Source of the DNA: Tetracentron sinense
Lineage: Eukaryota; Streptophyta; Magnoliopsida; Trochodendrales; Trochodendraceae
Assembly (NCBI GenBank): GCA_015143295.1
Contig: CM026565.1
Span: forward strand, 11,716,041 to 11,780,040
Length of the DNA: 64,000 bases
Direction of reading: 5' to 3'
Program-made: the position numbers and the translations under genes
Notes under the pieces: model-generated
The model's input: the letters and a program-made list of their open reading frames with translations, nothing else
Told to the model about the DNA's origin: nothing
Database searches by the model: none
Part shown: positions 18,500 to 61,490 of the stretch, in pieces
How positions within the stretch are numbered: position 1 is the stretch's first letter
Layout of the letters: each line of letters opens with the position of its first letter

Positions 18500-18970
18500 C
18501 GAGTGCCGAACACATTGAGCTGTGAATAGTGCCGAACACGTTGTGCTGTGAATAGTGCCGAACACGTTGTCACGTTGTGTTGTGCATAGTGCCGAACACG
18601 TTGTCTTATGTACAACGTGCCCGTCGTGAGCTGTACAACGTACACGTTGTTTGCTGTACAACGTACACGTTGTCTGCTGCACGACGTACCTGTTGTCTGT
18701 TGCACAACGGATGCACAACATATACGTTATCAGAGCTAGAGCTACGTTATCAGAGTACGTTGTCTATGCGTTGTCTGTGCCTTATCAGGGCACGTTGTCA
18801 GAGCACGTTATCAGAGCTACGTCCTTAGTGCCTTCCGAGCTACGTCCTTAGTGCCTCTCCAGAGCTCGCCCTCAAGTGCATATGCCCAGTGCCTCACCAG
18901 AGCTCGTCCTCAAGTGCATATGCCCGGTGCCTCTCCAGAGCTCGTCCTCAAGTGCATGACCGAGCGATCG
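18500..18970 (-). repeat. Palindrome array, CACGTTGTG/ACGT type, expanded
   Basis: About 470 bp of units such as GAACACGTTGTGCTGTGAAT and ACAACGTACACGTTGT, then degenerate CGTTATCAGAG and CCAGAGCTCG units. It is homologous to 5951-6282 but about 140 bp longer, showing gain of units. Confidence 0.75.
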
Positions 18971-19744
18971 ATTGCCTGCAGGTCCCGACTGTTTTGGCCA
19001 TATCTTTTGACTCGTTCGTCCGATTTTGACGATTCAACTTGCGTTGGGTTTGTACTTCGAAAAAGAACATATGTCAGGAAGCAAAATGGCAACGAAAGTG
19101 TCATGCATTAAATGTGAAAAGGTCCGGGGCTCTACACAAGGTGGACATGCCCACCATAAAATATACAAGTATACCCTCTCACCCACGCTCGAGGTCTACT
19201 AAACAAAACCTAACTAGGCAAATAGTCCCCATCACCAGGCTGAGGATCCTCCTGAGGTGTCTCTTCAACGTACTCCTCTTCCTCCCATGGACCGGCAGCA
19301 CATATGTCAAAAGGAGCAGTTGCTCCACTAGTACCTACCGACATCAAAAGTACGACTGAGCATGGAATACTCAGCGGGTACCTACTACTAACCAACAAGT
19401 CATAGAACAATGCATAATAATAATGATAACAATAAGCAGAGCAATAACGTTAAACAGAACAAGAAACAATTTGAAATTCATGCATGCTTGAAATCATGAT
19501 CGGTGAAACCTTGGTAAATTCTCGTGTACTTGTCTTGCCTTGTTACTTACATTTTAAATCATGTTTTCGTGCTTGGAAAAACTGGTCTTATCACTTGTCT
19601 TGTCATGTCTTGTTCTTGTCTTGTACTTGTGAAAACTTGCTTGTATGAACATGAATGCAAATGCATGTATGCTTGTCATGACATGATATGTACATGCTTG
19701 CTTGAATTTAAACGTGCTTGCTTGTCATGCATGCTTGGGATGTT

Positions 19745-20791: not shown

Positions 20792-20895
20792 ATCTCGCTC
20801 GAGCGGGCTTCCATAGCGGGTTCCTCCCGGGACTAAAAACACCATTTCTGGGCAATCTCGCTCGAGCGGGCTTCCATCTCGCTCGAGCGAGTTTG
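20792..20895 (-). repeat. Palindrome array, CTCGCTCGAGCGAG type
   Basis: Three CTCGCTCGAGCG units, the last completing the 14-bp palindrome CTCGCTCGAGCGAG. They alternate with GGCTTCCAT and lie between a TATATA box on the downstream side and the conserved block on the upstream side. Confidence 0.75.
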
Positions 20896-28030: not shown

Positions 28031-28853
28031 CATAGTTAGTAAAGTCGCGACTCAATCGCGAACTATTCGCGAATGAATCGTGGTATTCGTTAAACGATTT
28101 GTTCGGCTGTCTGATTCAATCGTTCGGATGTATACGCGGTTATTTGAGTCAAAACGAATCAGTCGCGAATCAATCGCGATAAAGTAAAAAAAACTAAATA
28201 TTATAAAATTCTAAAATAGAATTTTCTATTAAACTATCCATTCCCGTAAGTCTTCTCCACTCATAAACAGTTGGTATTTGGTAATCGGTTTCAGACTTTC
28301 AGCCGGCTCTTCCTCTCTCTCTCTCAACAAGCTCCTTCTTATCCATTCCGGTGGCCGGCCTGAGCATCATCGAATCAGCGACCACCAGATTCACCACCGT
28401 TTTTATAGGTTAGTATCTCTCTCTCTCTCGTGCAAACGCCTCTGTTTCTTCCTTTCTCTCCCAAGTCCCAACTTCATCTCTCACACAGTATGATTTAGTA
28501 AATAGTAACAGCCACGGTATGATCATAAAAAAATTTGATCTTGAGCGGTCACTCTCGCAGCCTCACTCCCTTGCTTCTTGATCTTGAGCGACCAACATGA
28601 TCATCAAAAATTTGGGTGGGAAACTGGAAGTGAAGATGGTTTCTTCATGGGGTGAGTCATCTAGAAGGGGAAGCACGCACAGGCACCATTGTTTTTCCTT
28701 TCTCTCCCAAGTTCCAACTTCATCTCCAAGAATGTAATAATCACCGCCCCTCCTCCCCCAATATACATAAAATCCAAAAGGCCTTTCCTTCCTAAAATTT
28801 GAGTTCGTTTCTTCAAAAATAAATTGTAATTTTAGAGTAAGCTTAAACCCCTA

Positions 28854-29028
28854 TTAACCATGGTTAAAATGTATTAACCCTTAGGTTCAATAATCTAACC
28901 TTGTTTTTGAAAAAATATTAACTCTAAGGTTAAATTTTTTTAACTAAAGTTAAAATTTTTTTAAACCAAAGTTAGATTATTGAACCCTAAGGGTTGATGA
29001 ATCCTAACCAAAGTTAACCAAGGTTAAC
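28854..29028. repeat. Foldback (MITE-like) sequence within the hAT element
   Basis: Two long imperfect arms: one with TTAACCCTTAGGTTCAATAA followed by TCTAACCTT, the other its near reverse complement (AGATTATTGAACCCTAAGGG). TTAACC-rich ends flank both. It could be a small inserted element or a structural repeat of the hAT 5' region. Confidence 0.5.
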
Positions 29029-29549
29029 AAGGACACATGTTGACTGTGATTCAATATTTTTATCTATATATATATATATCAAAAAATTATTGTTCTCTCA
29101 CATTGTCAATAAAAAAATATATATTTTAAATTATAAAGTGGAAGGTCCTAGGTTTGATTTCTCACTCCCTTTTTGGGTTCAGCCCTGCTCAATATTTTCC
29201 CAGAGTTATCTAGTGTGGCGGGTTGCGGGCTCTCGTCACACCCCCAGGGATTAGTCCTGACCCAAAGGGTTGGGGATACCTTAAGTTACCAAAGAATAAA
29301 TCTTATAAATAATATTGTGAATATCTTGTCCTCAAGGAGCCTGACTCTCAAATACAAAGATAGAGAGAAAAGAAAAACTAGAACTTAGAGATTTTTTGGT
29401 CAGAATTATACTGTTTTTTCTCTTATTTTTGTGTATGCATGTTAAAATAGTTTTATTTATTTTATTTTATTTTTATATGTAATTTTAATAGTTTGTTGAG
29501 TGATATATGGATAGATGAATGTATGTTTTAATTGCAACAGTCTGTAGAT

Positions 29550-31626
29550 ATGGTGAGAAAAAGAGATCGATTCTGGGAGTATGCGGAGGATTTAACTGGA
29601 AGATTTATTTGTAAATTTTGCAATAAAGAATATTCTGGAGGAGTAGCCAGAGTTAAATCTCACTTGTCTCAACAAGAAGGACGAGATATTGCGATTTGTC
29701 CTCGTGTGCCGGATGATGTCCAAGCTTCAGCTCTCTTAGCAATTAGCGGAAATGAAAACTCTAATAAGAGAAGTAGGATTGGATCATCTTCATCATATAT
29801 TGGGGGAGGTGGAGTTAATTCGTCTTTGGGTGCAGATAATTCGATATCAGAGATACACCAAACTACAGTACCGGGAATGTGTCATAAAAAGGATAAAGAA
29901 TCAGTGGACAAAGCGCTTGCTAAATCATTCTTTCTGAATAACATTTCATTCAATGTTATTCAAGACCCATCATTTATTGAATTTTGTAGAACTCTTTCAA
30001 ACTACGGTGTTGGCTATTCTGTGCCATCTTATTCAACTCTACGTACAAAGTTGGTACAAAATGCTAAGGCAGAAGTTGATGAGTATGTCTCTAGAGTTAA
30101 GGAATCTTGGACTCAAACAGGTTCAGGGTGTACATTAATGTCTGATGGTTGGACCGATTTAAAAGGGCGATCTTTTATTAATATGATTGCGTATTCTCCA
30201 AAGGGAGCCATTTTTTTAAGGTCATTTGAAGAGACAAGTGAAAAAAAGACAGGTGTATATCTTAGAGATTTGCTTTGTTATGCCATAGAGGAGATTAGAG
30301 CAGAAAATGTTGTACAGATCATCACAGATAATGCATCTAATTATGAAAGTGCCTGTCAAATGGTTATAGAAAGGTATCCTCACATCTATAAAACACGATG
30401 TGCTGCACATGGAATTCAGTTGCTTCTCAAAGATATCTATAAGGAGGTTGATTGGGTAAGAAATATTTATGACGATGCCAAAGACATAGTGGATTACATG
30501 TACAAATATAGTTCAGTCTTGACTTTAATGAGAAAGATGACGAGTGATAAAGAATTGAAAAGGCCTTGTAAGACACGGTTTGCTTATCATTTTTTGATGC
30601 TTCAATCTATTTTAGAAGTTGAAGATGGGTTACGTCAGATGGTTGCATCACTTGAGTGGAGAAGCATGAAATATTACACATCTGAATGGCGCAAAAAATC
30701 ACAAATATAATTCAAGGATCTAATTTTTGGAGTGATGGAAAAGAAGTAATCTTTGTACTAGAGCCTCTTATTAGAGTACTTCGTTTAGTTGATGGTGAAG
30801 GATCAACTGCAGGGTACTTGTATGAAGCAATGGAAAGGGCAAGAGATGCGTTGAAGCACCGATGTGAGAATGATCAAGCAAGGTACATAAAGTTATGGGA
30901 ATTATTTGATTCGAGGCGAGATAGAAATATACTTCATTGTGTTCATGCGGTTGCTGCATATTTAAATCCATTATTAATGTCGAGTGGAAAGATTAGGTAT
31001 GATCACCCGGATGTTAGAAAAGGGTTGCTCTTTGTTGTGGAAAAAATGGTTAGCTCAAGTGATGAACAAAAGACATTTGGTATACAAATAACAGAGTATA
31101 ATACTCAAAGTTCAGATATATTTACTTCTCTTGCAAGACATCAAATGGAAACGATTCACCCAAGTAAGTATTTAGTTTCATTTATTTTTCAAGTTATGTA
31201 TTTATACATGAAAATATGTGCTAAATTTTTTATTGAATTGTAGGAGTGTGGTGGTCACAAAATGGTGGACCAATTTCAATAGTTCAAAAGATTGCTATTC
31301 GTATTCTGAGTCAACCATGTAGTTCATCAGCATGTGAAAGAAATTGGAGTGCATTTGAAGCAGCACAAACAAAGAAGGGAAATAGATTGACACCCAATAT
31401 GTTGGAGGACTTAATTCACATACGAATGAATTCGAAGATGGAAGCAAATTGTGGTGAGCGTGAGAAGCGAGATACAAAAATAATCAATCTTGAGCAGCTT
31501 GGAGAGCTTCCTGAATACATGGATGATGATCGGGAGGAGTATGAAAATGTGGAAGAAGCTTCAACCAGTCGGGAAGATATACTTTTTGATGAGTTGTTTG
31601 GGCCTAAATCATTTGTTTCACGTTAA
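29550..31626 (+). pseudogene. hAT transposase (BED finger, DUF659, dimerization domain), one frameshift
   Basis: Catalyses cut-and-paste transposition. The ATG at 29550 follows a splice acceptor-like GCAACAG. Near the N-terminus is a BED-type finger (CKFC...HL). The DUF659/RNase H-like core includes SDGWTD and ITDNASNYESA, which hold the presumed catalytic aspartates. The C-terminal hAT dimerization part has SSACERNWSAFE. An 80-nt intron at 31164-31243 (GTAAGT...TTGTAG) joins HP to RVWWSQNGG in frame. A single 1-nt deletion in a run of A near 30693-30698 breaks the frame between EWRKK and ITNIIQG. Corrected for that, about 665 residues would be encoded, a usual length. Nothing else looks damaged, so this is a recently inactivated autonomous element, or the frameshift is a sequencing error. 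Confidence 0.88.
31164..31243 (+). other. Intron in hAT transposase
   Basis: Donor CCAA|GTAAGTATT and acceptor GAATTGTAG|GAGTG. The interior is 80 nt, AT-rich, and carries a stop in the upstream frame just before the acceptor. Removing it restores a continuous frame into the dimerization domain. Confidence 0.8.
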
Positions 31627-32210
31627 ATAATTTCTTAGAAGCAAGTAGTAACTTAGATGGATGCAGACTAATTTTTTTAGTTTTTTAATTGTCATTGACT
31701 CTTTTGATAGACCAATGGATGCGGAATAAGATTTTATTTATCTTTCTTATTTGGATATAGATTAATATAGACACTTTTTATATCTCATTGGATGTCCGAA
31801 TTATTGTTTGAATTATTTTTTTGTTAATGGTAAATAGAACACACATATGAATGAATTATAGACATTTTATTATTAAGTTTTAGTTTAATTTAGTTATTTA
31901 ATAATTAGATTTGTTTATTTATCTATTATATATGCTTAGGTCACTTCTCTTTATCCATTCAATTGCATAAAAGTTTAGATAAAAGGTAATCTATATTATA
32001 TGCATTTTATATGTTTAGCCGAATTTTTGAACTAATTTTTTAGTTTTGATCCGAACTATACTCGAATTATTCCCGTACCGTACTTTTGACGTTCTACGTT
32101 TTTTTCACCGAAGTTTTGAACGAATTATTAAATAATTATTCCGAACTATACCCGAATAATTCCCGTGCCGAATTATTGCCGTACGACGAATTACTAACTA
32201 TGGTCCTGAC

Positions 32211-32616
32211 CACCGATCGCTCGGTCTTTCGCGTTTTTACAGAATTTCATTAAGGGCTTTTTCATCTTTTAGGCGTTACACCCTTGCCTATAAGGGCTTG
32301 CACGAGCCTTGGGTCCTCATTCATCACACTTAGCTGCATTTTGAGAGGGAGTAAGAGAGGAAAAAGGGTTTTCAACCTAGGATTTGCAACTTGAGGGAAA
32401 TCAAGGGTTTAAGAACCCTAGATCATCACAAGCTTGGATTTCTTCAAGCACGCCGCTCAAGCACATGAGGAGCTCGTTCTACAAGTTAGGGCAGCATCTT
32501 TCTCGGCAAGAACAAGGGTTTTCTTCCTCTATTTTAAGGTCGGTACCCTATGCTACCCTCCTAGTTCATATTCTTCATTCTTTTCTTCATCTTATGGTTT
32601 TTCCTCAAAATCTAAG
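32211..32616 (+). repeat. 3' LTR of element C, segment 2
   Basis: Continues the palindrome array (ACCGATCGCTCGGT at 32212), then CCTATAAGGG near 32288 as a TATA-like site, and matches 16020-16420. It is cut at 32617 by a solo LTR. Confidence 0.8.
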
Positions 32617-33314
32617 TGTCGCGCCCCAAAATACCCCCTAGGAGTTAAGGGATACTTTAGAGGTGACTACGTGTACCTGTCAAACCATCCTGTAATGCAA
32701 GAGGCCAAACATAATATAATACAATGATAATCAGAGCGCGGAAACTAAACATAATTGCGGAAGCATAAGCCAACTTTTTCTTTTCTTCTATAACTCCAAA
32801 TAGTATTCCAAGTTAACATATACCAAATACAATCAAGTAAAGGTGGACATGCCCACTTATCAAAATACAAAAAGGAACTCTCTAACCCTCTCCTCTCAAC
32901 AGTAGTCGAGGTATGGCCACACATCCAAGTCCCTATCCTCCTGAGACTGCCATGGGATAGGTGGCTCCTTCTCCTCTACATACTCCTCCTCGACCCAAGG
33001 CTCGGGGTCGAGGACATCCACAGTACCTGTCGACATAAAAGTACGGCTGAGCATGGAATACTCAGCGAGTACAAACTACTAGCTAACCATAACAATAGCG
33101 AAAGCATAACAACAGTGAGCAATACAAGATATTAATTTAAAGCAATAGTGAAAGCATAAGATACATAGCCATATCTTGACATGCGTGTATGAATGCAAAA
33201 ACCTCGGTAAAACTCATGTCTCGGAAACCTTTTTCGTGTCTCGATCAAATCATGTATGTGTGTCGTGTCTTGTCTTATATTTCATGTCTTGATTTGTTCT
33301 TGACTTGTATACTT

Positions 33315-33590
33315 GTGAGCCAGAGGCTAGCACCCTTCCTTAGGCTACCAACCTCCTTGTCATGTTCTTGTTCCATTTCTCTTGTGAGCCAGAGGCTAGC
33401 ACCCTTCCTTGGGCTACCAACCTCTTTGTCATGTTCTTGTTCCATTTCTCTTGTGAGCCAGAGGCTAGCACCCTTCCTTGGGCTACCAACCTCCTTGTCA
33501 TGTTCTTGTTCCATTTCTCTTGTGAGCCAGAGGCTAGCACCCTTCCTTGGGCTACCAACCTCCTTGTCATGTCCTTGTTCCATTTCTTGA
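33315..33590 (-). repeat. Four 69-bp tandem hairpin repeats
   Basis: Units start at 33315, 33384, 33453 and 33522 and are almost identical. Each contains GAGCCAGAGGCTAGCACCC and GGGCTACCAACCTCC, which form an imperfect inverted repeat. The period divides by three, so two frames on each strand look open here; these are not genes. Confidence 0.9.
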
Positions 33591-35973: not shown

Positions 35974-36068
35974 TGTAGCACCCCGGACTCTTTTCATCCT
36001 TAATGAATAGCACCTTCGTAGATAATTGACCGTTTTTGTAGTCTAATTAATAAATAAGGGAGAAATCG

Positions 36069-36175
36069 GAAATTCTGAAATGTCAGAAATGTGCGTTTTC
36101 GAAAGACGAACCCAACACAAGTTGAATCGTCGAAATCCGACGAGCGAGTCAAAAGATATGGTCAAAACAGTCCAG
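36069..36175 (+). promoter_or_regulatory. Conserved LTR block (about 100 bp)
   Basis: Contains CGAAAGACGAACCCAACACA, then AGTTGAATCGTCGAAATCC and GACGAGCGAGTCAAAAGATA. The same block, in LTR orientation, occurs in every gypsy LTR of the window that retains this region, even where the flanks do not match. It lies directly upstream of the palindrome array. Function unknown; U3 position suggests a promoter role. Confidence 0.6.
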
Positions 36176-36186
36176 ACATACAGAGA

Positions 36187-36375
36187 ACCGATCGCTCGGT
36201 CCAGTCAGCGATCGATCGGTCCATAACCGATCGATCGGTAGCTATCGCGCGGTCAGAAATTTTGTATGGGGAAATTTTCCAGAGAGTGAGTTTTTGGCCG
36301 GTCGATCGGTCATAAACACCGATCGATCGGTAGGCAACCGATCGATCGGTCATAACCACCGATCGCTCGGTCTTC
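36187..36375 (+). repeat. Palindrome array, CGATCG type, 5' LTR
   Basis: About nine units such as ACCGATCGATCGGT, ACCGATCGCTCGGT and GGTCGATCGGTC, with spacers of 5-30 bp, ending about 60 bp upstream of the TATA-like site. The 3' LTR copy is at 43650-43838. Confidence 0.85.
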
Positions 36376-37360
36376 GCGTTTTTGCAGAAATTTCAGTAAG
36401 GGCGTTTTCGTCTTTTGGGTGTTAAACCCTTACCCATAAGGGTTTGCTCGACCCTTTGAGGCCTCACTTACAACATTTGAGGGATTTTGAGAGATAGAGA
36501 GAGAGGAGGAGAAAGCTCTAAACCTAGGTTGCTTTTGGAGAAGAAATCAAAGGGGTGAAGACCCTAGATCGTCCCCAAGCACGTCTTCTTCAAGATTTCA
36601 ACTCAAGCTCGTGTGGAGGTGCATTCTCCAAGCTAGGGCAACACTCACTCACATTTTGAAAGGGGTTTCTTCCTCAACTCAAGTCTCCTTCAAGCAAAGG
36701 TGTTCTTCTTTCAAGTTGGAGCTTCAATCAAGGTTTCTATCAAGGATCAAGCCTTGATTTAAGGTTAGTACACCCTACTAACTTACCCTAGCAATAAATC
36801 TAGGTTTTTCCTTATGAAATATGATTCTTGTTAGTGTGTTTTATTCCTTGCAAATGGGGCATCTATAATAAATATAAACAAGATAAAGAAAGAGTAGGGA
36901 TGTTTGGATGGAGGTTGGATACGGCGATTGGATGCCGAATGTGTGATATATGATGTGTGGGATGTGGATTGGAAAATGGAGGATGGGCATTGTACAAATA
37001 ACAAACTTACCCTTGTGTGATTGAATGGAAAATATGCATTAAAAAGAAGGAGATAAACTACTAAGGAATAACGTATGAAAGTGTTTGACAAAATGCCTAA
37101 ATTATGAATAAATGATCTCAATGAAGGACATGGAAATGGGTTTTATGCATGCGTCCTTATAAATGATAAATTGATCAAATGTTATGCAAACTACTTATGT
37201 TACTTATGTTCATATCATGAATTGAATTATAATGTCATATTTGGTTATTTCCATTATCATGATTGTCACTATGGACACGTACACGAGCACGCATGATAGC
37301 ATGAACCGTGATTTCAAGAGCATGTGCATATAATAAACAACAAGAAATATTGCATGTCAA

Positions 37361-37605
37361 GGAGGTTGGTAGCCCAGGGACATTCGGGTGCTAGCCTCTG
37401 GCTCACAAGTGCATTGCATAACAAGGAGGTTGGTAGCCCAGGGACATTCGGGTGCTAGCCTCTGGCTCACAAGTGCATTTCATAACAAGGAGGTTGGTAG
37501 CCCAGGGAGGATTCGGGTACTAACCTCTGGCTCACAAGTGCATTGCATATCAAGGAGGTTGGCAGCCCAGGGAGATTCGGGTGCTAGCCTCTGGCTCACA
37601 AGTTT
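37361..37605 (+). repeat. Four 64-65-bp tandem hairpin repeats, 5' LTR
   Basis: Units start at 37361, 37425, 37489 and 37554. Each carries GGAGGTTGGTAGCCC and GGGTGCTAGCCTCTGG, which pair imperfectly. The 3' LTR copy is at 44824-45068. Confidence 0.9.
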
Positions 37606-37856
37606 ACAAGATGGAGGTTTACAAGATGATGATCATGCATTCATGCATGCACGCATACATGATTTCTACGAGGCATACCGGGACATGACAAGGGTTTTCA
37701 AGCATGAGTTTTATCGGCATTTTCGCATTCATGTACGCACGTCAGGATGCTTGTATTGCGTCATGCCCTATACTGTTTCTTTGTGATGTTTCTATTACTG
37801 CTTGTATGATATTACTATTATGTGTTTTTATTATTGTTATGGTCTGCTAGTAGCTT

Positions 37857-37888
37857 GTACTCGCTGAGTATTCCATGCTCAGCCGTAC
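37857..37888 (+). promoter_or_regulatory. Conserved terminal LTR hairpin
   Basis: GTAC-tc-GCTGAG, a nine-base loop TATTCCATG, then CTCAGC-c-GTAC: a ten-pair stem with a small bulge. It is followed by GTCGGCAGGTA. The same hairpin, loop included, occurs in the other gypsy LTRs. A role in polyadenylation, R-U5 structure or RNA packaging is possible but unproven. Confidence 0.6.
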
Positions 37889-38319
37889 TTTCATGTCGGC
37901 AGGTACTGAGGGAGCCCTCGACCCGGAGCCTTGGGTCGAGGAAGAGTATACAGAGGAGAGAGAGTCGGCTATCCCATTACAGTCTCAGGCGGACCGAGAC
38001 CTCGATGCGTGGCCATACCTCGACTACTGTTGAGGGGAGAGTATGAGAGAGTTTGGTGTATTTTGATATTTTGATAGGTGGGCCTGTCCACCTTAGGCTT
38101 AGACATGTCTTGTATTTATGTTAACTTGGAATACTATTTTGGATCATCAGAAGAAATGAAAATTGTTTACGCTTCCGCATATATGATAGCTTCCGCGCTC
38201 TGATTATCGTTATGAGTACTGTATTTTATCTTGTGCATTACAGGATGGTTTGATAGGTTCGCAGTGTGACACCTAAAATATCCCTAAACTCCTAGGGGGT
38301 ATTTCGGGGCGTTACAGAG

Positions 38320-38331: not shown

Positions 38332-38643
38332 TCTAGGCATTAGAGTCCCTAGGGTCACTTAGATGATTGAACAAGGTATTAGAATCACCTTAGAGAGTTG
38401 TATTCCAAGTATAGACTAACAAGTTAGTCTTAGTCAAAATGGGTTGAACTTCAACCGAACCTAGTGTCCTACGCTAGGAACGCGGATTGTATGTTATGCT
38501 ATTGTGTTATATACCATATGTGCATTAATTGTGTTGTGCTTATTAAGTATGCTTGATGAATATGTATTGAGCGAATTGCGAAATTTGTACTAATTGTGTA
38601 TCCAAGTTAGACTCATGTTGTATTGTCGTTCTCAGGAGAAATC

Positions 38644-41600
38644 ATGAGACGCAATACCCGGGGTCGCGGGTACAACACGAGGGGTAATGGAGGTGATGCT
38701 CCATCGGGTGATGATCAACCCGATTTTGCCCAAGCATTCGCATCCATAGCCGAGACCTTGGCTATGTTGGCGGCAAGGCAACCGGCCACTCCGCCTAATG
38801 CGGCACTCATACCGGCTCCTCCTAACCGAGCCCAAGCCGGGATAGAAGCTTTTCGGAGGATGAGGCCTCCAACTTTTTGTGGAAGCATTGATCCACTTGT
38901 TGCCGAGGGTTGGATCTGGCAACTTGAGAAGATATTCTCGGTATTAGCACCTACTGAAGTGGAAAGGGTCACATGGGCCGCCTTTATGCTTGAAGGCGAG
39001 GCCGATCATTGGTGGAAGTCTGCACTTCGGACCCGAGAGTTGACCCGGCAAGGTCAAGGTTGGACTTGGGAGGAATTCTTGGAGGTTTTCAACAAGAAGT
39101 ACTTCCCAATCGGGATGAAAGAAAAGATGGAAGTCGAATTCATTACCTTGGAGCAAGGTAATATGTCCGTAGCGGCTTATGAAGCCAAATTTTCGGAGCT
39201 ATCTCGATTTGCTCCACACATGATAGCGACCGAGGCTATGAAGGGCCGGAAATTCGAGAGGGGGTTGAAGGCCTACCTCAAGGACCGAGTCTCGATGTTT
39301 AGACATGAGACATATTCTGAAGTTGTTGATAAAGCACTATTGGCCGAGTCGAACTCCGAGGAGTTCTTCAAAAGGAGAGGAATGGAAAAAGGACAGTCGA
39401 GTAGTTCAGGGGAGAAAAGAGCAAGGACGAGCTTGTATCAGTCTGCAGGCCCGGCTCAGTCACAGAGGATGTATTCAGCACCACAGGCTCCCCGCTCTTT
39501 CGCTCCACCGGCTTTTCGCCCGGCTACCTCATATGCTCCTCGCCCCGCAGTTACTCAGGCTACGGGATATGCTCCTTCCTCCTATTTACATGATGTTTGC
39601 ACTCTTTGTGGGAGGAGGCATCCAGCGGGAGAATGCCGGAGAGTTTCAGGAAGTTGCTTCCATTGTGGTGACCAAGGCCACATGGTCAGAGATTGTCCCC
39701 GGCGTCAATTGCCAACTCAGTCTTTAGGGAGCAGGCCCCCGGTTAGGCAGACATCTCAGCCTAGCTCTTCTCAGGCTTCGAGGGCCTCACAGTCTACCCG
39801 GCCTCCTCGCCCAGCCACACAGGGCCGAGTCTTTGCCTTATCCGAGAGAGACGCACGTGCATCCGATGATGTCGTGCAAGGTACGCACGAATTCTAGAAT
39901 TTAAATTGTGTAAAATTTCTATGGTTTGCTTTGTGAGTTTCTATACTAAGGGTTACCTATGTATGATGCTTTTTGTTTGAAATCTACTAATAGTAGTCAC
40001 TTAATCGCACAGGCGCTTTGTTAGTGAACGAATGTCTTGCCCGAGTGTTGATCGACACAGGATCCACTCACTCCTTTGTGTCGCCTAGTTTCGCAAAGGG
40101 ATTTTTGACTGAGGCTACTCCGTTAAAGCAGGAGTTGACCATTGCAACTCCACTCGGCAAGTCAGTTGATACGGACAAGATATTCGGGGATAGTGTGGTT
40201 CAAGTGGGGGAGAATGAACTGTTAGCCGATCTCATCGTCCTAGATTTTCAAGACTTGGATTTTGATGTCATCTTAGGGATGGATTGGTTGTCAAACCATC
40301 AAGGGCATGTTGCGTGTTTTGAGAAGATGGTGAATTTCAAGCCGGAAGGGGGTAAGCCTTTTCACTTCCGAGGATTAAGAGAGAGGGACATTGCTCGCCT
40401 CGCAGCCTTGAGTGTAACAAACCTAGAAGCACAAAACTCCTCGGCCATTCCGGTCGTGAGTGATTTCTTGGACGTGTTTCCGGAGGAACTTCCCGGGTTA
40501 CCTCCGAATCGGGAGATTGAGTTCGCTATAGAGCTTACTCCGGGCACCGCTCCAATTTCAAGAGCCCCATATAGAATGGCCCCGATAGAGCTTGAAGAAT
40601 TGAAGAAGCAAATTGAGGAGTTACAACAACTTGGTTTCATCCAACCAAGTGTGTCACCGTGGGGAGCTCCGGTCCTTTTTGTAAAGAAGAAAGACGGGTC
40701 GATGAGAATGTGTATAGACTACCGTCAGTTGAACAAGGTAACTATCAAGAATCGTTATCCCTTGCCAAGGATCGATGACTTGTTCGACCAACTGAAGGGA
40801 GCGAGATTTTTCTCCAAAATTGACCTTAGATCGGGGTATCATCAATTAAGGATCAAGGCGGAAGATGTTCCGAAGACGGCTTTTAGGACTCGGTATGGGC
40901 ATTACGAGTTCCTTGTCATGCCTTTTGGGCTGACGAATGCACCGGCGGCATTCATGGATTTGATGAACCGGGTGTTCCGATCTTACTTGGATCGATGCGT
41001 GATTGTATTCATTGATGACATTTTGGTGTATTCCCAGACACGGGAAGATCACGCACGAGACCTCCGCCTCGCTCTAGAGATGTTGAGAGAGCATAGGCTA
41101 TATGCCAAATTGAGTAAGTGCGAGTTCTGGTTAGAGAAGGTCGCATTTCTTGGACACGTGGTGTCGGCCGAGGGCATTTCTGTAGATCCAGCCAAGGTTG
41201 AGGTAGTCATGAGTTGGGAGAGGCCCAAGAGCGTCACGGAGATACGTAGTTTCCTCGGATTGGCAGGCTACTACCGGAGATTTGTGGAGGGATTCTCCAG
41301 TTTGGCTGCACCTCTCACCTACTTGACAAGAAAAAGTGCAAGGTTCAGTTGGAGTGACCGATGTGAAGTAAGTTTCCAAGAGTTGAAGAAACGCCTCACC
41401 ACAGCCCCTGTCCTTACTGTGCCATCTGGACCTTTTGGGTATGAGGTGTACAGTGATGCCTCGCATGTTGGACTCGGGTGTGTCCTAATGCAACACAAGA
41501 AGGTCATTGCTTATGCATCAAGGCAGTTGAAAGAGCATGAAAAGAACTACCCCACTCACGACTTGGAGCTTGCGGCGGTCGTGTTTGCACTTAAAATTTG

Positions 41601-43344
41601 GCGACATTATCTGTACGGGGTGGAGTTCTATGTGTACACGGACCACAAGAGCCTCAAGTATCTCTTTTCCCAAAAAGAGTTAAACTTACGACAACGGCGT
41701 TGGATTGAGTTCTTAAAAGACTATGAGTGCACGATCCAATATCACCCGGGAAAAGCAAATGTGGTGGCAGACGCTTTGAGTAGGAAACCATCGGGGTTGT
41801 TGGCTCACATGTTGGTGCGGGAATGGAGACTGTTAGACGATTTGGCAAATCTAGACATCAGTGTGAACGATTCTGTCCGCAGTCCGGTTTTGGCAAATGT
41901 TACAGTTCGGCCGTACCTTATAGACTTGATCCAGGAGTATCAAGCCACGGACACTGACTTGTTGGTTTTCCGGGATAGGGAAGTGGCCAAGGGTAGTACG
42001 GACTTCTCTCTCACTAGCCGAGGTGCTATTACATTCAAGGGAAGGCTTTGTGTCCCAGCCAATGCAGACCTTCGGAGAGAGATTATGGACGAAGCTCACC
42101 GGTCTAAGTATACAGTGCATCCCGGGGGGACAAAGATGTACCGGAACCTCAAGAGTCACTTTTGGTGGCGAAACATGAAGAGGGAGGTTGCGGAGTATGT
42201 GGCACGGTGTTTGGTATGCCAACAGGTGAAAGCAGAGCATTTGAGACCAGCGGGTCTTTTGCAGTCCCTCCCTATTCCCGAGTGGAAATGGGAACATATC
42301 TCTATGGATTTCATCGTGGGGTTGCCGAAGACGGTTAGGAAGACTGATGCTATATGGGTAGTTGTTGATAGACTCACGAAGTCCGCTCATTTCTTACCGT
42401 ACCGGACTACATTCAACTCCAATCAGTTAGCGGAGCTATACATCAAGGAAATAGTCCGATTACACGGGGTGCCAGTGAGTATTGTGTCGGATAGAGACCC
42501 AAGATTCACATCCAGGTTTTGGAAAAGTTTTCAAGGTGCAATGGGCTCCCGATTAGACTTTAGCACAGCTTTCCACCCACAGACCGACGGGCAAACCGAG
42601 AGGGTGAATCAGGTTATTGAAGATATGCTCCGAGCATGTATGCTAGATTTCAAGGGAAGTTGGGAAGATCACCTACCTTTGGTGGAATTCGCTTACAACA
42701 ACAGTTATCAAGAAAGCATACAAATGGCGCCTTTCGAGGCTTTGTACGGAAGGAGTTGTAGATCCCCGTTGTATTGGGATGAAGTGGGAGAAAGAAAGAT
42801 TTTGGGCCCCGAGTTAATTGAACAAACCGCGGATAGGGTCAAGCTTATCCGAGAGAGGTTAAAGACTGCACAAGATAGACAGAAAAGCTATGCCGACAGC
42901 CGAAGGAGGGACCTTGAATTCCGAGTAGGTGATTTTGTGTTTGTAAGGATTTCACCAACCAAAGGTGTTATGCGATTCGGGAAGAGAGGCAAGCTTAGCC
43001 CGAGATATGTGGGTCCGTTCGAGATCATTACTCGAGTTGGCGAGGTGGCTTACCGTGTTGCTTTGCCCGCTCACATGGCGGCGGTCCATAATGTATTTCA
43101 TGTCTCTATGCTCCGGAAGTACATCTCGGATCCTTCTCATGTCATCGAGCTTGATCCGATTGAGATCCGAGAGGACCTCACTTTAGTTGAGAAGCCGGTT
43201 CATATTTTGGATAGGAGGGATCAAGTGCTTCGCAACAAGACTATTCCGCTAGTCCTCGTGCAATGGCAACATCATGCACGAGAAGAAGCCACGTGGGAGC
43301 GTGAAGCCGAAGTCAAAGCAAAGTATCCCGAGTTGTTTGAATAG
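38644..43344 (+). CDS. Gag-Pol polyprotein of the complete gypsy element, with intron 39881-40012
   Basis: The Gag start is the ATG at 38644 ([14 protein letters not shown]). Without splicing, Gag ends at TAG 39895-39897. With removal of 39881-40012 it continues as a protein of about 1522 residues. Gag core is near residues 83-158 ([23 protein letters not shown]). The CCHC knuckle [14 protein letters not shown] is near 338-351. The protease has [10 protein letters not shown] near 427. RT has [17 protein letters not shown] and FIDD near 746. RNase H has [10 protein letters not shown] near 892. Integrase has an HHCC finger near 1106-1145 and DDE residues in [15 protein letters not shown] and DGQTER. 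The C-terminal chromodomain-like tail has EEATWE near 1510. All key residues are present, so it could be active. The first in-frame ATG of pol lies far inside the protease, so pol cannot start on its own. Confidence 0.92.
39881..40012 (+). other. Inferred gag-pol intron of the complete element (132 nt)
   Basis: Donor GTGCAAG|GTACGC and acceptor TCGCACAG|GCGCTTTG. A TACTAAT branch-site-like sequence lies about 25 nt before the acceptor. The interior is AT-rich and has several in-frame stops, including TAG at 39895. The flanks are in the same frame and join as VQG-ALLVNE. Confidence 0.68.
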
Positions 43345-43436: not shown

Positions 43437-45779
43437 TGTAGCACCCCGGACTCTTTTCATCCTTAATGAATAGCACCTTCGTAGCTAATTGGCCGTTTTT
43501 GTAGTCTAATTAATAAATAAGGGAGAAATCGGAAATTCTGAAATGTCAGAAATGTGCGTTTTCGAAAGACGAACCCAACGCAAGTTGAATCTTCGAAATC
43601 CGACGAGCGAGTCAAAAGATATGGTCAAAACAGTCCAGACATACAGAGAACCGATCGCTCGGTCCAGTCAGCGATCGATCGGTCCATAACCGATCGATCG
43701 GTAGCTATCGCGCGGTCAAAAATTTTGTATGGGGAAATTTTCCAGAGAGTGAGTTTTTGGCCGGTCGATCGGTCATAAACACCGATCGATCGGTAGGCAA
43801 CCGATCGATCGGTCATAACCACCGATCGCTCGGTCTTCGCGTTTTTGCAGAAATTTCAGTAAGGGCGTTTTCGTCTTTTGGGTGTTAAACCCTTACCCAT
43901 AAGGGTTTGCTCGACCCTTTGAGGCCTCACTTACAACATTTGAGGGATTTTGAGAGATAGAGAGAGAGGAGGAGAAAGCTCTAAACCTAGGTTGCTTTTG
44001 GAGAAGAAATCAAAGGGGTGAAGACCCTAGATCGTCCCCAAGCACGTCTTCTTCAAGATTTCAACTCAAGCTCGTGTGGAGGTGCATTCTCCAAGCTAGG
44101 GCAGCACTCACTCACATTTTGAAAGGGGTTTCTTCCTCAACTCAAGTCTCCTTCAAGCAAAGGTGTTCTTCTTTCAAGTTGGAGCTTCATTCAAGGTTTC
44201 TATCAAGGATCAAGCCTTGATTTAAGGTTAGTACACCCTACTAACTTACCCTAGCAATAAATCTAGGTTTTTCCTTATGAAATATGATTCTTGTTAGTGT
44301 GTTTTATTCCTTGCAAATGGGGCATCTATAATAAATATAAACAAGATAAAGAAAGAGTAGGGATGTTTGGATGGAGGTTGGATACGGCGATTGGATGCCG
44401 AATGTGTGATATATGATGTGTGGGATGTGGATTGGAAAATGGAGGATGGGCATTGTACAAATAACAAACTTACCCTTGTGTGATTGAATGGAAAATATGC
44501 ATTAAAAAGAAGGAGATAAACTACTAAGGAATAACGTATGAAAGTGTTTGACAAAATGCCTAAACTATGAATAAATGATCTCAATGAAGGACATGGAAAT
44601 GGGTTTTATGCATGCGTCCTTATAAATGATAAATTGATCAAATGTTATGCAAACTACTTATGTTACTTATGTTCATATCATGAATTGAATTATAATGTCA
44701 TATTTGGTTATTTCCATTATCATGATTGTCACTATGGACACGTACACGAGCACGCATGATAGCATGAATCGTGATTTCAAGAGCATGTGCATATAATAAA
44801 CAACAAGAAATATTGCATGTCAAGGAGGTTGGTAGCCCAGGGACATTCGGGTGCTAGCCTCTGGCTCACAAGTGCATTGCATAACAAGGAGGTTGGTAGC
44901 CCAGGGACATTCGGGTGCTAGCCTCTGGCTCACAAGTGCATTTCATAACAAGGAGGTTGGTAGCCCAGGGAGGATTCGGGTACTAACCTCTGGCTCACAA
45001 GTGCATTGCATATCAAGGAGGTTGGCAGCCCAGGGAGATTCGGGTGCTAGCCTCTGGCTCACAAGTTTACAAGATGGAGGTTTACAAGATGATGATCATG
45101 CATTCATGCATGCACGCATACATGATTTCTACGAGGCATACCGGGACATGACAAGGGTTTTCAAGCATGAGTTTTATCGGCATTTTCGCATTCCTGTACG
45201 CACGTCAGGATGCTTGTATTGCGTCATGCCCTATACTGTTTCTTTGTGATGTTTCTATTACTGCTTGTATGATATTACTATTATGTGTTTTTATTATTGT
45301 TATGGTCTGCTAGTAGCTTGTACTCGCTGAGTATTCCATGCTCAGCCGTACTTTCATGTCGGCAGGTACTGAGGGAGCCCTCGACCCGGAGCCTTGGGTC
45401 GAGGAAGAGTATACAGAGGAGAGAGAGTCGGCTATCCCATTACAGTCTCAGGCGGACCGAGACCTCGATGCGTGGCCATACCTCGACTACTGTTGAGGGG
45501 AGAGTATGAGAGGGTTTGGTGTATTTTGATATTTTGATAGGTGGGCCTGTCCACCTTAGGCTTAGACATGTCTTGTATTTATGTTAACTTGGAATACTAT
45601 TTTGGATCATCAGAAGAAATGAAAATTGTTTACGCTTCCGCATATATGATAGCTTCCGCGCTCTGATTATCGTTATGAGTACTGTATTTTATCTTGTGCA
45701 TTACAGGATGGTTTGATAGGTTCGCAGTGTGACACCTAAAATATCCCTAAACTCCTAGGGGGTATTTCGGGGCGTTACA
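43437..45779 (+). repeat. 3' LTR of the complete gypsy element
   Basis: Same length as the 5' LTR (2343 bp) and offset by exactly 7463 bp throughout, so no indels separate the two. Substitutions are visible, for example, near 43484 (C for A), 43559 (G for A) and 45193 (C for A). It ends GGGCGTTACA, followed by the duplicated TGACA. Confidence 0.95.
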
Positions 45780-45891: not shown

Positions 45892-46366
45892 ATTAAACCC
45901 TTATAGGGAAGGGTTTAACCCCCAAAAGATGAAATAGCTCTTACTGAAATTTCTGCAAAAATGCGAAGACCGAGCGATCGGTGGTTATGATCGATCGATT
46001 GGTTACCTACCGAGCGATCGGTGTCCTTGATCGAGCGACCGGTCAAAAATATGTTCTCTGGAAAATTTCCCCATACAAAAAAAGTTGACCAGTCGATAGC
46101 CTCCAATCGATCGGTTTTGGACCGATCGATCGCTACTAATGACCGAGCGATCGGTGCTTTGCAGGTCCCGACTGTTTTGACCATATCTTTTGACTCGCTC
46201 GACGGATTTTGACGATTCAACTTGCGTTGGGTTCATCTTTCGAAAAGGAACCTTTCTAACATTTCAGAATTTCCACTATCTCCCTTATTTATTAATTAGA
46301 CTATGAGAAAGGCCAATTAGCTACGAAAGTACCATTCATTAAATATAGAAAAGTCCGGGGTGCTAC
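45892..46366 (-). repeat. 3' LTR of gypsy element E, truncated
   Basis: 475 bp ending GGGGTGCTACA at 46366, followed by a polypurine tract (minus strand). It aligns with 53392-53866 of the 5' LTR over the same length, with about five percent differences by eye. The remaining 1.9 kb was lost at the junction near 45891. It includes a CGATCG array (45967-46160) and the conserved block (46170-46275). Confidence 0.82.
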
Positions 46367-52212: not shown

Positions 52213-52490
52213 GTGAGCCAGAGGCTAGCACCCGAATCTCCCTGGGTTGTCAACCTCCTTGATATATGGTTTTCTTGTGAGCCAGAGGCTAGTACCCGAA
52301 TGTCCCTGGGCTACCAACCTCCTTAACAATATATGATTTTTATTACTTGTTTAGTTTTCTTGTGAGCCAGAGGCTAGTACCCGAATGTCCCTGGGCTACC
52401 AACCTCCTTGACAATATGTGTTTTGAGTTTTCTTGTGAGCCAAAGGCTAGTACCCGAATGTCCCTGAGCTACCAACCTCCTTGACATGCA
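52213..52490 (-). repeat. Hairpin tandem array in LTR of element E
   Basis: Four diverged units of GAGCCAGAGGCTAGTACCCG and GGGCTACCAACCTCC, spaced by 55-90 bp because of variable linkers. It is homologous to the arrays at 33315, 37361 and 44824. Confidence 0.82.
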
Positions 52491-53467
52491 ATGTTTTCTT
52501 GTTGATTATTATATGCGTGTGCTCTTGAAATCTCGGTTCATGCAACATGTGTGCTCATGTAAGTGACAATAGTGACAATCATGGGAACACATGTAACAAG
52601 AGGAATATCGCATCACATTTCGATTCATAGTATAACATGCAAGCATTTAGGGGATCAACATAGCATTTGGTCAAATCGTCATTTACAAGAGTAGTTACAT
52701 CGGGCTTACATCCATTTCCTTATTTAAATTCATTTATTCTTGGTTTAGGCATTTTATCAGACATCCGGTGTGTAACATTTCTAGTAGTTTTTCTTCACCC
52801 TTTTTAACGCATATTTTCCATCAATCATCATGGTATATTCATTATTTATAGAATGTCCATCCACCGTTTTCCATTTCACCCATCACATCCACATCCAACG
52901 GCATCCAATCGCCACCATCCACATCCCATTCACACATTCGAATCTTTTTCTTATCTTATTTATATTTATTGGAGATGTTACATTTCATAGGAAAGGAAAA
53001 CATGATAGAAAGAATCATATTTCACCATAGAAAACCTAGATTATTGCTAGGGGAAGTTAGTAGGGTGTACTAACCTTGAATCAAGGCTTGATCTTGGTTG
53101 TAAACCTTGATTGGAGCTCCAACTTGCAAGAAGGAGGACTCTTGCTTGAAGAGGGCTTGAGTGGGAAGGAAATCCTCTTGAAAATAGCTTAGAGAATGCT
53201 ATCCTTGCTTGAGAGAGACTCCCCCCATGAGCTTGAGGCTTGGATTTGAGAGATCTAAGCTTTGGAAAAATTCTTGGGTAGCCCAACTCTTGATTTCTTC
53301 TCAAGAGCAAAACCCTAGGATGGTAAATCTCCTTCTCCTCTCTCTTTATCTCCCAAATACTCTAAGTATAGCGAATGAAGCCCTAAGGCTAGGGCAAAGC
53401 CTTATAGGGAAGGGTTTAACCTCCAAAAGATGAAATAGCCCTTACTGAAATTTCTGCAAAAACGTGA

Positions 53468-53660
53468 AGACCGAGCGATCGGTGGTTATGACCGATCGAT
53501 CGGTTGCCTACCGAGCGATCGGTGTCCTTGATCGAGCGATCGGTCAAAAACATGCTCTCTGAAAAATTTCTCCATACAAAAAAAGTTGACCAGTCGATAG
53601 CCTCCGATCGATCAGTTTTGGACCGATCGATCGCTACTAATGACCGAGCGATCGGTGCTT
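53468..53660 (-). repeat. Palindrome array, CGATCG type, in LTR of element E
   Basis: ACCGAGCGATCGGT, ACCGATCGATCGGT and variants, with the same flanks as in the complete element. Confidence 0.8.
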
Positions 53661-53866: not shown

Positions 53867-55456
53867 GTGGTATAGAACCCCTCTTAAGAAAATACAATAA
53901 AGTACACATGTATGCTTGGAGGTGCACTAACATCTTGGTTGCTTGTTCTTGTTCATGTCGTGTTCTTGTTCTTGTCAAAAGCGAGGCAAAACATATCTTA
54001 AGATATGCCCTACCTCTCATACCAACCTTTACGTTTGGCCTTGTCATGGTGTTCGTGAATCAAGAATAAAACCCTTGTCTTGAAAACTCGATAAACCATG
54101 TCATGCATGCTGTGCTCGTGGTTTCGTGTACATGCTATCACTTGAAATTTAACATGACATATGAAATTCAATAATACATGGAATAGCATTCGTTCAACAC
54201 ATAAGGATATTCATACTATTATGGAAAGCGAATAAGCACACTATCATAAATCCTAGAAGTCTCATATGCCTTAAATTTATACATCCTTTTCTAGAAACAA
54301 TTATCATTCTCTTCACCTTGACATTTCATCAAACATTTGGTGTGTACATTATGGTTAAAGCCTACTTCTTGCTTTTCTAGATGGATCAACGCTCATAGCA
54401 TACATGTGTGTTCATTATTGGTGAAATACCCTTCCCATTTCATTCATCACAAAACATACACACGGCATCCATCGCCCATACACAACCATCCATCTCCATC
54501 CATTCATCCCATCACATTATCATGGTTAGAATTTAGGGAAAAACCATAAAATGAAGAAAAAAAAGAAAAGATGAACTAGAAGGGTAGTATAGGGTACCGA
54601 CCTTCAATAGAATGACGAAAACCCTTGATTTGGAGTCCCAACCTTAAAGAAGAACTCCTCTTGGGTTTGACAAACTCTAGTTGATTTGGGGAAAATCCTT
54701 GCTTGAAAATCTTCAAGCTTGAGCTTCCCTTCATCTCCAATCAAAACGCTCTTTGGAGGTTTTTCCCAAATTTCCTCTTCTCCTTCCTCCCCTCTTTCTC
54801 TCCTCTTGGTCTAGAAAAGCCCCAAATGAAGTTCCCTAACAAGCCAAGGGTTTAAAACCCTCAAATTCAGCATCAGCTACCGCATGCAATCGATTGCACA
54901 CTTAACTGGGATCGATTGCGGGTCGATACGATCGATCGCACATTGATGCGATCTGTCGCACATGAACCCAAACACTTTTGTCTGATTTCCTCCTGCATGT
55001 GATCAATTGCACACTCTTGCGATTGATCGCAGATCCTTGCGATCTGTCGCACCTGGTATCTCATCTATCGCATATGATCTAGAATGTTTGGGACTAATTT
55101 CACCTGCATGCGATCGATCACACCTAACTTGCGATCGATCATACTCCCCAGATTTTGTTATTTTCAATCATTTTTCCTTACTTTGGTATTCTGGCCATAA
55201 CTTTTGACTCGTTCGTCGGATTTTGACAATTGAACTTGCGTTGGATTCGTCTTTTGAAGGGGAACATTTCTGACATTTTAGAATTTTACAAATTATATTT
55301 TATTTATGAACCAAATTGTCCCGAAAGTTGACTCATCTGCAAATGAAGTTCGACAACCCAGATTTTCAATAATTCCGACTTCGGAATTCCAACTTTTAAC
55401 TCAAGAAAATGGCCTTAAGGCTTTGATACATGACAAAAAAAATCCGGGGTGCTACA
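53867..55456 (-). repeat. Partial LTR F of another gypsy family
   Basis: Cut on the left by element E and ending GGGGTGCTACA at 55456. The left part resembles 35330-35480 in reverse (GCGAGGCAAAACATATC, TTTACGTTTGGCCTTGTC). It holds a palindrome array at 54882-55150 and the conserved block at 55188-55290. No coding sequence and no mate were found. Confidence 0.72.
54882..55150 (-). repeat. Palindrome array, GCGATCGATCGC type
   Basis: Ten or so units of TGCGATCGATCGCA-like sequence, many decayed (GCGATCTGTCGCAC, GCAATCGATTGCAC), with CCTGCATG spacers. The core differs from the ACCGATCGGT arrays: the flanking pair is GC...GC rather than ACC...GGT. Confidence 0.75.
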
Positions 55457-56705: not shown

Positions 56706-56824
56706 TGGACTCGTCGACGAGTAGAAGAGACTCATCGACGAATAGCAAAATAGTAAGCTCATTTTGATTACGGTCCCCCCACTCGTCGACGACCCAAGTT
56801 TTTCTAGACTCACTCATCGACGAG
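56706..56824 (+). repeat. Palindrome array, CTCGTCGACGAG type, in copia LTR
   Basis: Four units of ACTCGTCGACGAGT or variants (ACTCATCGACGAAT, ACTCGTCGACGACC, ACTCATCGACGAGT) in about 120 bp, ending about 75 bp upstream of TATAAATA. Confidence 0.78.
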
Positions 56825-56896
56825 TGTATGCAAGAAATGGGTATAACAGCTAGTTTGCACTAAATGTACTCTCAACGGCCATATTGATTGCTCAAC

Positions 56897-56904
56897 TATA
56901 AATA
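56897..56904 (+). promoter_or_regulatory. TATA box of copia LTR
   Basis: TATAAATA in ACTATAAATAGAGC, about 640 bp before the LTR end; standard for a U3 promoter. Confidence 0.6.
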
Positions 56905-57537
56905 GAGCTTATTTATGAACTAAATACAGGATTCCAACACTGTTCAATCATTCATACATTACTCACAATCTTCTAGCAATCAATACTCTGCTTTTACATT
57001 GAATACCTAGAATCTCAATCCCTCATTCTTGGAGCTTTCAATTCCAATCAATCTTGAGTGATTATTATCCTTGTATTCCATTCAAATCTAGCTCAATTAG
57101 GAGCTTTCAAATTTGGATTTCAATATTCAACAAATTCTATAAAAGTTGAAGTCAAGAATCGAGGATTCTTGCATCATTTGAGAAGAAGCTCTTCTTGTAT
57201 CCAAGAGAGGGTTTCTCTTGAAGAGGTTGGATCCTAAGCCTGTGAAAAGGATTGTAAAGGTTTACTCTCTGCCCATAAAGAAGAGTGCGATTAGTGAAAT
57301 CGTGGGAAAATCCATAAAGCGGGAAGCTTAAAGGCGGGGATGTAGGTAAGTTGTCAAACCCCGATAACATATCTTGTGTGTGGTATCATTTTCTCTCCCT
57401 CTCTTTATTTATCTCTATTTATTGTTGGTAGCATTAGTGATTAAATTTTAAATTCCGTATTAATCACCCAGTTAAACTTTTTAATTGTCATTGACCCTAA
57501 TCACCCCCTCTCTAGGGTGCATTAACTGGGTAACAAT

Positions 57538-57549
57538 TGGTATCAGAGG
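57538..57549 (+). other. Primer-binding site of copia element
   Basis: TGGTATCAGAGG, one mismatch to the initiator-Met type site, two bases after the LTR end. Confidence 0.72.
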
Positions 57550-57596
57550 CTAGTACTCTGTTTTTAGATTTAACCATCTTGAGTTAAAGATCCTAA

Positions 57597-61177: not shown

Positions 61178-61490
61178 TTCGCGACCTATGATCAGTCGTA
61201 GGTTTCCTATGATCAATCGTAGCATCTCTACAATCGGTTGTAAGTTTCTACGATCGATCGTAAACATTACAGAGAGTTTGCCCATTTCCGGAAGTCTTAC
61301 GATCGATCGTAGGTTTTCTACGATCGATCGTAGCTCACCTACAATTGTTCGTAGGGTCTGTACGATCGTTCATAATATGTCCAGTAAGTTTCTCAATTTT
61401 GGGGTTCTACGATCGATCGTAAGTTTTCTATGATCAATCGTAGATCACCTACGATTTTTCGTAGGGTCTATACGATCGTTCGTAAATCTG
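61178..61490 (-). repeat. Palindrome array, TACGATCGATCGTA type
   Basis: Twelve or so units of CTACGATCGATCGTAG, from perfect (near 61297 and 61318) to decayed, with TTTT-rich spacers. Confidence 0.82.

Follow-up and report, generated by a model that had tools for sequence, protein, structure and literature searches.

The window analysed here, the whole stretch of 64,000 nucleotides at C15:11716041-11780040 of a 1.16-Gb plant genome, consists for the most part of nested Ty3/gypsy elements. Twelve of their long terminal repeats (LTRs), named by start kilobase, were compared (L06, L13, L15, L19, L21, L27, L34, L35, L46, L53, L55 and L61). Element A, on the forward strand, has its 5' LTR (L35) at 35974..38316, starting with TGTAGCACCCCGG, and its 3' LTR (L43, the twin of L35) at 43437..45779, also on the forward strand. 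Both are 2343 bp long and show 11 differences, with only 1 difference in 186 array bases. The coding part (38623..43344, forward strand) comprises gag (38623-39897) and pol (40018-43344), in which Pfam matches to protease, RT, RNase H and integrase follow the Ty3 order. A weak chromodomain match was found at the end of pol (PF00385, E 2.8e-4, 21.2 bits, under the cut-off of 25.1). Judged from these domains, element A is a chromovirus-like member of Ty3/gypsy. Its long LTRs are no more than a loose fit to the Tekay/Del clade. Protein neighbours are scattered over the angiosperms, at about 45-69% identity. The IMG/VR search returned no relatives of pol or of the conserved LTR block described below, and two palindrome matches in that search were (GATC)n microsatellites and were discarded; an Rfam search gave nothing at gathering scores.

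Two other features were seen within the LTRs. A minisatellite of 64-73 bp (CTTGTGAGCCAGAGG...) with varying copy number is present in the downstream part of several array-bearing LTRs (33312-33587, 37349-37603, 44812-45066, 52269-52497 and 59764-60345). At 36740-36800, the sequence AAGGTTAGT(A/AC) after the 5' leader resembles a splice donor within the LTR, and several LTRs have it when read by eye.

In the sense direction, the LTRs begin with TGTAGCACCCC or a similar sequence, followed by a conserved block (GTTGAATCGTCAAAATCCGACGAGCGAGTCAAAAG...), an array of short repeats and a TATA-like box. Arrays were present at all the places given in the preliminary description of this DNA. The commonest kind, here called ACC type, is found in the 5' LTR of element A (36187..36371, forward strand) as two blocks of 3-4 palindromes with a pitch of 19-21 bp, separated by a 43-bp linker, and in the 3' LTR of the same element (43650-43834). 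The linker (36254-36296, TTTTGTATGGGGAAATTTTCCAGAGAG) is itself conserved among ACC-type LTRs. Other ACC-type arrays are in L13 (13276..13511, reverse strand, LTR start 14009), L15 (15850..16033, forward strand), L27 (27900..28024, forward strand) and L34 (34559..34743, reverse strand, LTR start 34955). The L27 array is split by a DNA transposon (28032-32201), so that its last unit lies at 32212-32225. This transposon has an ORF (29532-30710) with DUF659 and BED-finger domains, ends in ATAGTTAGTAA/TTACTAACTAT, is flanked on both sides by a repeated GGTCCTGACC, and bears subterminal palindromes rich in CGCGA. Two further ACC-type arrays, both on the reverse strand, belong to a truncated 3' LTR (45969..46155) and a 5' LTR (53470..53656) that are 94% identical over 473 bp, and are probably, by this resemblance, the LTR pair of one older element, element B. 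The sites 36187 and 43650, and likewise 45967 and 53468, had been counted as separate cases; the former are the LTR pair of element A (11 differences in 2343 bp) and the latter resemble that of element B (94%).

The remaining listed arrays, all on the reverse strand, are of other types. L55 carries a TGCGATCGATCGCA-type array (54885..55143), L61, which has a 110-bp higher-order repeat, a TACGATCGATCGTA-type array (61187..61484) of three blocks with four units each, and L21 a CTCGCTCGAGCGAG-type array of three units (20794..20891). The CACGTTGTG/ACAACG arrays of L06 and L19 are mostly ordinary tandem repeats of 23-28 bp: that of L19 (18500..18709) includes two imperfect 16-bp palindromes, and that of L06 (5951..6208) shows no palindrome enrichment.

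The units are CpG-rich palindromes of 14 bp. The ACC type consists of ACCGATCGATCGGT together with an imperfect form, ACCGATCGCTCGGT; the TAC type is TACGATCGATCGTA, the TGC type TGCGATCGATCGCA and the CTC type CTCGCTCGAGCGAG, and all four have three CpGs placed four bases apart. The preliminary description had taken the palindrome core to differ by family. On the contrary, ACCGATCGATCGGT, TACGATCGATCGTA and TGCGATCGATCGCA share the core CGATCGATCG and differ in the outer arms only. Two additional types, GACGATCGATCGTC (in LTR L068, from elsewhere in the genome) and ACTCGTCGACGAGT, come from outside the listed arrays. The exact ACC palindrome is present as described, although many units are imperfect (ACCGATCGCTCGGT), 28 of them with A>C at position 9. 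In 7/7 ACC-type LTRs the unit nearest the promoter is ACCGATCGCTCGGT, identical to the letter; in L13 this holds even with an identity of only 46-49% in the flank beyond the array on its downstream side.

Spacing of the units is regular. Of 38 gaps in five representative arrays, 28 measure 19-22 bp, 16 of these being exactly 21 bp; random placement gave 6.8 such gaps on average and never more than 19 in 20,000 trials. In the window and the sampled loci taken together, 117/126 core distances of up to 36 bp keep this pitch, in loci that had been selected by palindrome or block. A pitch of this size corresponds to about two turns of the helix. Units are mostly grouped in blocks of 3-4, with start-to-start gaps between blocks of 47-58 bp (63 in L21); since gaps of 47-58 bp do not match whole turns, helical phase between blocks was rejected and phase is claimed within blocks only. 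Unit number, which had been described as conserved, ranges from 3 to 12 among the arrays.

The frame in which the arrays are set was also compared. In element A the block lies at 36121..36161 and the TATA-like box, CATAAG, at 36435..36440, both on the forward strand, the box 64 bp after the last unit. A common block beside the arrays was confirmed in 10/12 LTRs, whereas L15 and L27 have an array without the upstream block. The distance from array to TATA-like box is 63-64 bp in six ACC-type LTRs (four with TATA, two with the weaker CATAAG), 53 bp in the TAC type and 42 bp in the CTC type, and TTTTTGCAGAAATTTCAGTAAGGG follows the array in the ACC and ACAACG types. Arrays had been said to end 35-100 bp before TATA-like boxes. 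This was the case in 8 of the 11 LTRs measured, at distances set by family (63-64, 53 and 42 bp), while no such box was found in L06, L19 and L55. The values 42, 53 and 63 bp lie near multiples of 10.5; being three values only, they are not taken as a helical phase relative to the box.

The same frame was found elsewhere in the genome. The conserved block, allowing up to 2 mismatches, occurs at 12,759 + 12,561 places (about 25,320), against 0 for the reversed control. Forty further loci, lying around the ACC and TAC matches that head the list for contig 1, were picked for an exact palindrome and thus test the frame and not palindrome frequency. The block was detected in 31/40 of them (up to 11 mismatches), with the array beginning 25-66 bp after it. 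Among these block-bearing loci, 13/16 of ACC type had a TATA-like box 61-65 bp beyond the last unit, and 11/15 of TAC type had one 53-56 bp beyond it. Twenty arbitrary 10-kb pieces contained two block-bearing LTRs, both with palindromes (L051 of TAC type and L053 of ACT type). Five LTRs chosen for varied block sequence among 100 block matches listed, and read by eye, showed palindromes of the ACC (L070), CTC (L071) and GAC (L068) types, an irregular CGACGAA array in L069 and, in L067:1-641, A/T-rich inverted and tandem repeats at the array place with no clear CpG palindromes.

Palindromes were counted as 14-mers with at least 6/7 pairs, and each array was compared with 500 shuffles of itself. 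The expected enrichment was found in 10/12 LTR arrays (P<=0.012), and failed in the CACGTTGTG/ACAACG arrays of L06 (P 1.0) and L19 (P 0.19). The counts over the 12 arrays were 7, 6, 5, 5, 4, 4, 4, 3, 2, 2, 2 and 0, six arrays (109-311 bp) holding 5-7 palindromes or nearly so; of 290 control tiles taken from the window, each 200 bp long, six had three or more and none had five. With up to one mismatch, ACCGATCGATCGGT occurs 34 times in the window and 0 times in 100 dinucleotide shuffles. A motif-blind scan of the window and 20 genome pieces of 10 kb detected 10 clusters of palindromes, compared with none in Markov copies; 9/10 of them were within 400 bp of a conserved block; eight were window clusters, from six LTRs. 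A CAACG-type palindrome cluster without a block, at L062:2382-2503, is perhaps part of another ACAACG-type LTR.

Genome-wide, each place being counted once per strand, exact matches number 30,033 for ACCGATCGATCGGT (reversed control 3), 4,871 for TACGATCGATCGTA (13), 2,111 for ACTCGTCGACGAGT (1) and 529 for CTCGCTCGAGCGAG (1). For these four palindromes the excess over the reversed pattern is about 370 to 10,000 fold, in LTR copies that are related by descent, so that the counts are not independent. Palindrome arrays are present throughout the genome, and chance as their origin is ruled out by the shuffles, the pitch null and the reversed-pattern counts. The chimera of the first two palindromes, ACCGATCGATCGTA, was found only 57 times on both strands (control 12), indicating discrete families of palindrome and not covariation as such, because one arm must undergo two substitutions to give a chimera. 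Arm covariation measured by shuffling in the sampled loci (93/124 vs 45.4) was discarded as biased, the loci having been picked by perfect palindromes.

All 12 arrays are rich in CpG, with observed/expected ratios of 1.08-1.93 against 0.66 for the window. Over the 300 bp that follow the array the ratio is 0.15-0.59 in 11/12 LTRs, the exception being L27, where the transposon lies; in the 200 bp upstream it is 0.87-1.54 in nine LTRs and 0.21-0.39 in L15, L27 and L21. As RNA of the sense strand, six palindromic arrays fold far below shuffled sequences (z -2.8 to -7.9), with downstream controls near 0, while the ACAACG arrays give -2.5 in L19 (control -2.3) and -0.9 in L06 (control -1.3). The folding would suit a role of the arrays as RNA hairpins cut into small RNAs, which would make them silencing hotspots and their turnover an escape race, and palindromes of maize Sireviruses have been described as small-RNA hotspots (PMC5311732, PMC10760457). 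Folding of this kind is, however, a by-product of any palindrome array, and hairpins require neither an exact pitch, nor a set TATA distance, nor an identical imperfect proximal unit. This explanation accounts better for silencing than for upkeep of the arrays, and we regard it as unlikely.

Within arrays, units are 73-88% identical in 9/10 arrays, compared with 22-39% for the flanking 5 bp on either side; in the tenth, L21 with its three units, the values are 95% and 60-73%. Plain tandem duplication would not yield such arrays, with units alike and spacers unlike. Neutral, minisatellite-like growth by slippage or template switching, with palindromes as an incidental outcome, would agree with the variation in unit number from 3 to 12, with the ACAACG arrays and with the 110-bp higher-order repeat of L61. 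It is hard to reconcile with spacers near chance identity next to conserved units, with the kept pitch, and with at least six palindromic array types in one position whose chimeric arms occur only 57 times, and it seems quite unlikely as a general explanation.

Comparison between LTRs gave a mixed picture of selection. Between group A (L34, L35) and group B (L46, L53), units are 89-93% and spacers 79-83% identical; the upstream U3 is 85-89% identical, nearly at unit level, and the downstream 300 bp 63-77%. Units are thus better kept than spacers between the groups, whereas within the close pairs they are no better (93 vs 100% in L34/L35, 95 vs 97% in L46/L53). These identities suggest, without proving it, purifying selection on units. 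In 76 units, departures amounted to 43 CpG transitions, 16 CpG transversions, 24 other transitions and 50 other transversions, of which 28 were A>C at position 9. Compensated pair changes, considered as proof of selection on the dyad, were rejected as such, with 5 observed vs 4.0 expected in the arrays. Selection for dyad-symmetric sites, as the preliminary description had it, is therefore favoured indirectly by unit over spacer identity, by the two-turn pitch and by the 7/7 proximal unit, but finds no excess of compensated changes.

Replacement of a whole array was found in one clade. LTRs were assigned to coding parts by order and strand in the window. In the RT-RNase H tree, the coding parts E06 (ACAACG) and E27 (ACC) form a sister pair with 100% bootstrap, a second pair joins EA and EB (both ACC) at 98%, and E13 (ACC) is the outgroup. 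The ACAACG array of E06 is therefore derived, since every other branch carries ACC arrays. The integrase piece also joins EA and EB at 98% but places E06 nearer to EA (83.5%) than to E27 (78.9%), a discord that makes recombination within pol possible. The upstream flank of L06 is 84-86% identical to those of L34, L35, L46 and L53. L19, which is related to L06 and shares its array type, retains AGTCGGGACCTGCA and ATCGATCGCTCGGTCAT at its 5' edge, where L53 and L46 carry them too, before the ACAACG repeats begin; the fossil ACC-type unit ATCGATCGCTCGGTCAT lies at 18956..18972 on the reverse strand, and the matching unit in L06 is further decayed. From this arrangement, we read the L06/L19 clade as one in which the array was replaced between fixed edges, leaving one old unit. 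Replacement of a cassette, as judged by array type against the RT tree, is thereby supported for one clade.

An array absent from the earlier list was found at 56709..56825 (forward strand), before a copia-type gag. It has four units of ACTCGTCGACGAGT type, the first two 21 bp apart, and the conserved block was not found at it. It is followed by TATAAATA at 56897, by TGGTATCAGAGG near 57540, which resembles a primer site, and by pieces of a copia-type gag; the element (56709-59066) encodes a Ty1/copia gag (PF14223, E 2.7e-16) and has no pol in the window. The same palindrome is present in chromovirus-type LTRs. L053, whose block has 5 mismatches, carries ACTAGTCAACGAGT, ATTAGTCGACGAGT and ACTCGTCAACGAGT at 804, 825 and 846, 21 bp apart, followed by TATAAATA, and a second case, known by coordinates only, has a block at C1:31841558-31841591 (reverse strand) and, 71 bp downstream of it, an exact copy of ACTCGTCGACGAGT. 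The copia-type array does not share its spacers with the chromovirus-type arrays, which leaves room for convergence as well as for old exchange.

This sharing bears on the idea that the partner of the sites is a protein encoded by the element or belonging to chromatin (integrase, a chromodomain complex or positioned nucleosomes) instead of a transcription factor. The weak chromodomain match in the elements would fit it, as would the wheat element RLG_Quinta, which replaced an LTR segment upstream of the TATA box and is linked to CENH3 nucleosomes (PMC11302176). Yet a copia-type element without chromovirus-lineage proteins bears the same palindrome type, and the 47-58 bp block spacing within arrays gives no nucleosome repeat, which leaves this idea very unlikely. 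A role in integration targeting was set aside, the published preference of LTR elements for palindromes being weak, and absent for Tekay, in the sources available.

The best reading, to which we give a probability of roughly 60%, is that the arrays are exchangeable enhancers for a dyad-symmetric host protein. Palindromes that differ by family in like spacing and position hint at interchangeable docking sites for such a protein. Each array would be an enhancer-like cis-regulatory cassette in the U3 of the LTR, just upstream of the core promoter, presenting on one helix face, at a two-turn pitch, 3-12 copies of a 14-bp site that has dyad symmetry and contains CpG. A dimeric host DNA-binding protein would bind these sites and drive element transcription, or gate it by methylation. 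Families would retain the frame (position, pitch, dyad and three CpGs) while altering the arms or the whole array, and such changes may bring a new partner or escape from repression. In favour of this reading are the excess of exact palindromes over reversed patterns, the two-turn pitch, the likeness of units beside unlike spacers, the distance to the TATA-like box set by family, the constant proximal unit, the CpG richness of the arrays, the palindrome type common to a copia-type and a chromovirus-type LTR, and the Sirevirus precedent given below. Against it are the ACAACG arrays and L067 with no clear palindromes, the close LTR pairs in which units are no better kept than spacers, an upstream U3 nearly as conserved as the units between groups A and B, the lack of an excess of compensated changes, and the common descent of the LTR copies. 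The anatomy of the arrays is itself firmly established.

An extension of the enhancer reading is possible but decidedly tentative. The LTR array of this genome may be a modular socket, for which unrelated superfamilies, chromovirus and copia, converge on or trade a small set of palindromes (arms AC, TA, TG or GA around CGATCGATCG; CTCGCTCGAGCGAG; ACTCGTCGACGAGT), each of which has three CpGs and recurs at a two-turn pitch. This set would mirror a family of methylation-sensitive dimeric host factors, and swaps of the L06/L19 type could be moves in a race to win these factors or to evade repression.

The architecture is not new in kind, with a precedent from 2010 in the LTRs of Sireviruses (Ty1/copia), which have palindromic repeated motifs upstream of the TATA box, there called Sirevirus-specific as against classic copia elements (PMC2829016). 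The two systems are alike in their tandem, family-specific palindromes, often with CpG, which lie within a CpG island a short way upstream of the TATA box; the Sirevirus motifs start 200-400 bp into the LTR and number at least 8 copies. Here, tandem palindromes upstream of an LTR TATA box were found with the exceptions of L06, L19 and L067, and a CpG island at the array in 12/12 LTRs. The Sirevirus motifs belong to Ty1/copia, with mostly a CGG-CCG signature, whereas those described here are in Ty3/gypsy chromovirus-like elements with mostly the CGATCGATCG core. The two-turn pitch, the frame of block and TATA box, array replacement and sharing with copia, all seen here, were not found in the consulted part of PMC2829016. 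Element A is not a Sirevirus, since it is Ty3/gypsy, and its arrays look as if they may work alike.

In maize Sireviruses, a palindrome-rich, variable cis-region of the LTR with a proposed silencing conflict (Bousios et al. 2016, as reported in PMC5311732 and PMC10760457) also resembles the present arrays, but belongs to another superfamily. The LTR segment replacement of RLG_Quinta/RLG_Cereba in wheat likewise affects a stretch upstream of the TATA box with the rest of the LTR kept, although this is a single 162-bp motif tied to CENH3 and not a palindrome array (PMC11302176). Rice Retrosat2, placed under Del/Tekay (PMC6317226), is a comparable chromovirus whose LTRs are long and whose U3 is short (1-244), and the word "palindrom" is absent from the text of its paper (PMC3485330). 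The literature search, with subscription literature outside its scope, found no account of such arrays in chromoviruses.

If the arrays are enhancers, a single palindrome with about 30,000 exact copies would give this genome a large pool of ready regulatory sites, and the arm types would account for expression differences between close families. The discrete arm types would then offer a natural test of which host factor is used by each retrotransposon family, and the sharing of one palindrome by copia and gypsy elements makes it testable whether host factors, and not descent, shape LTR promoters.
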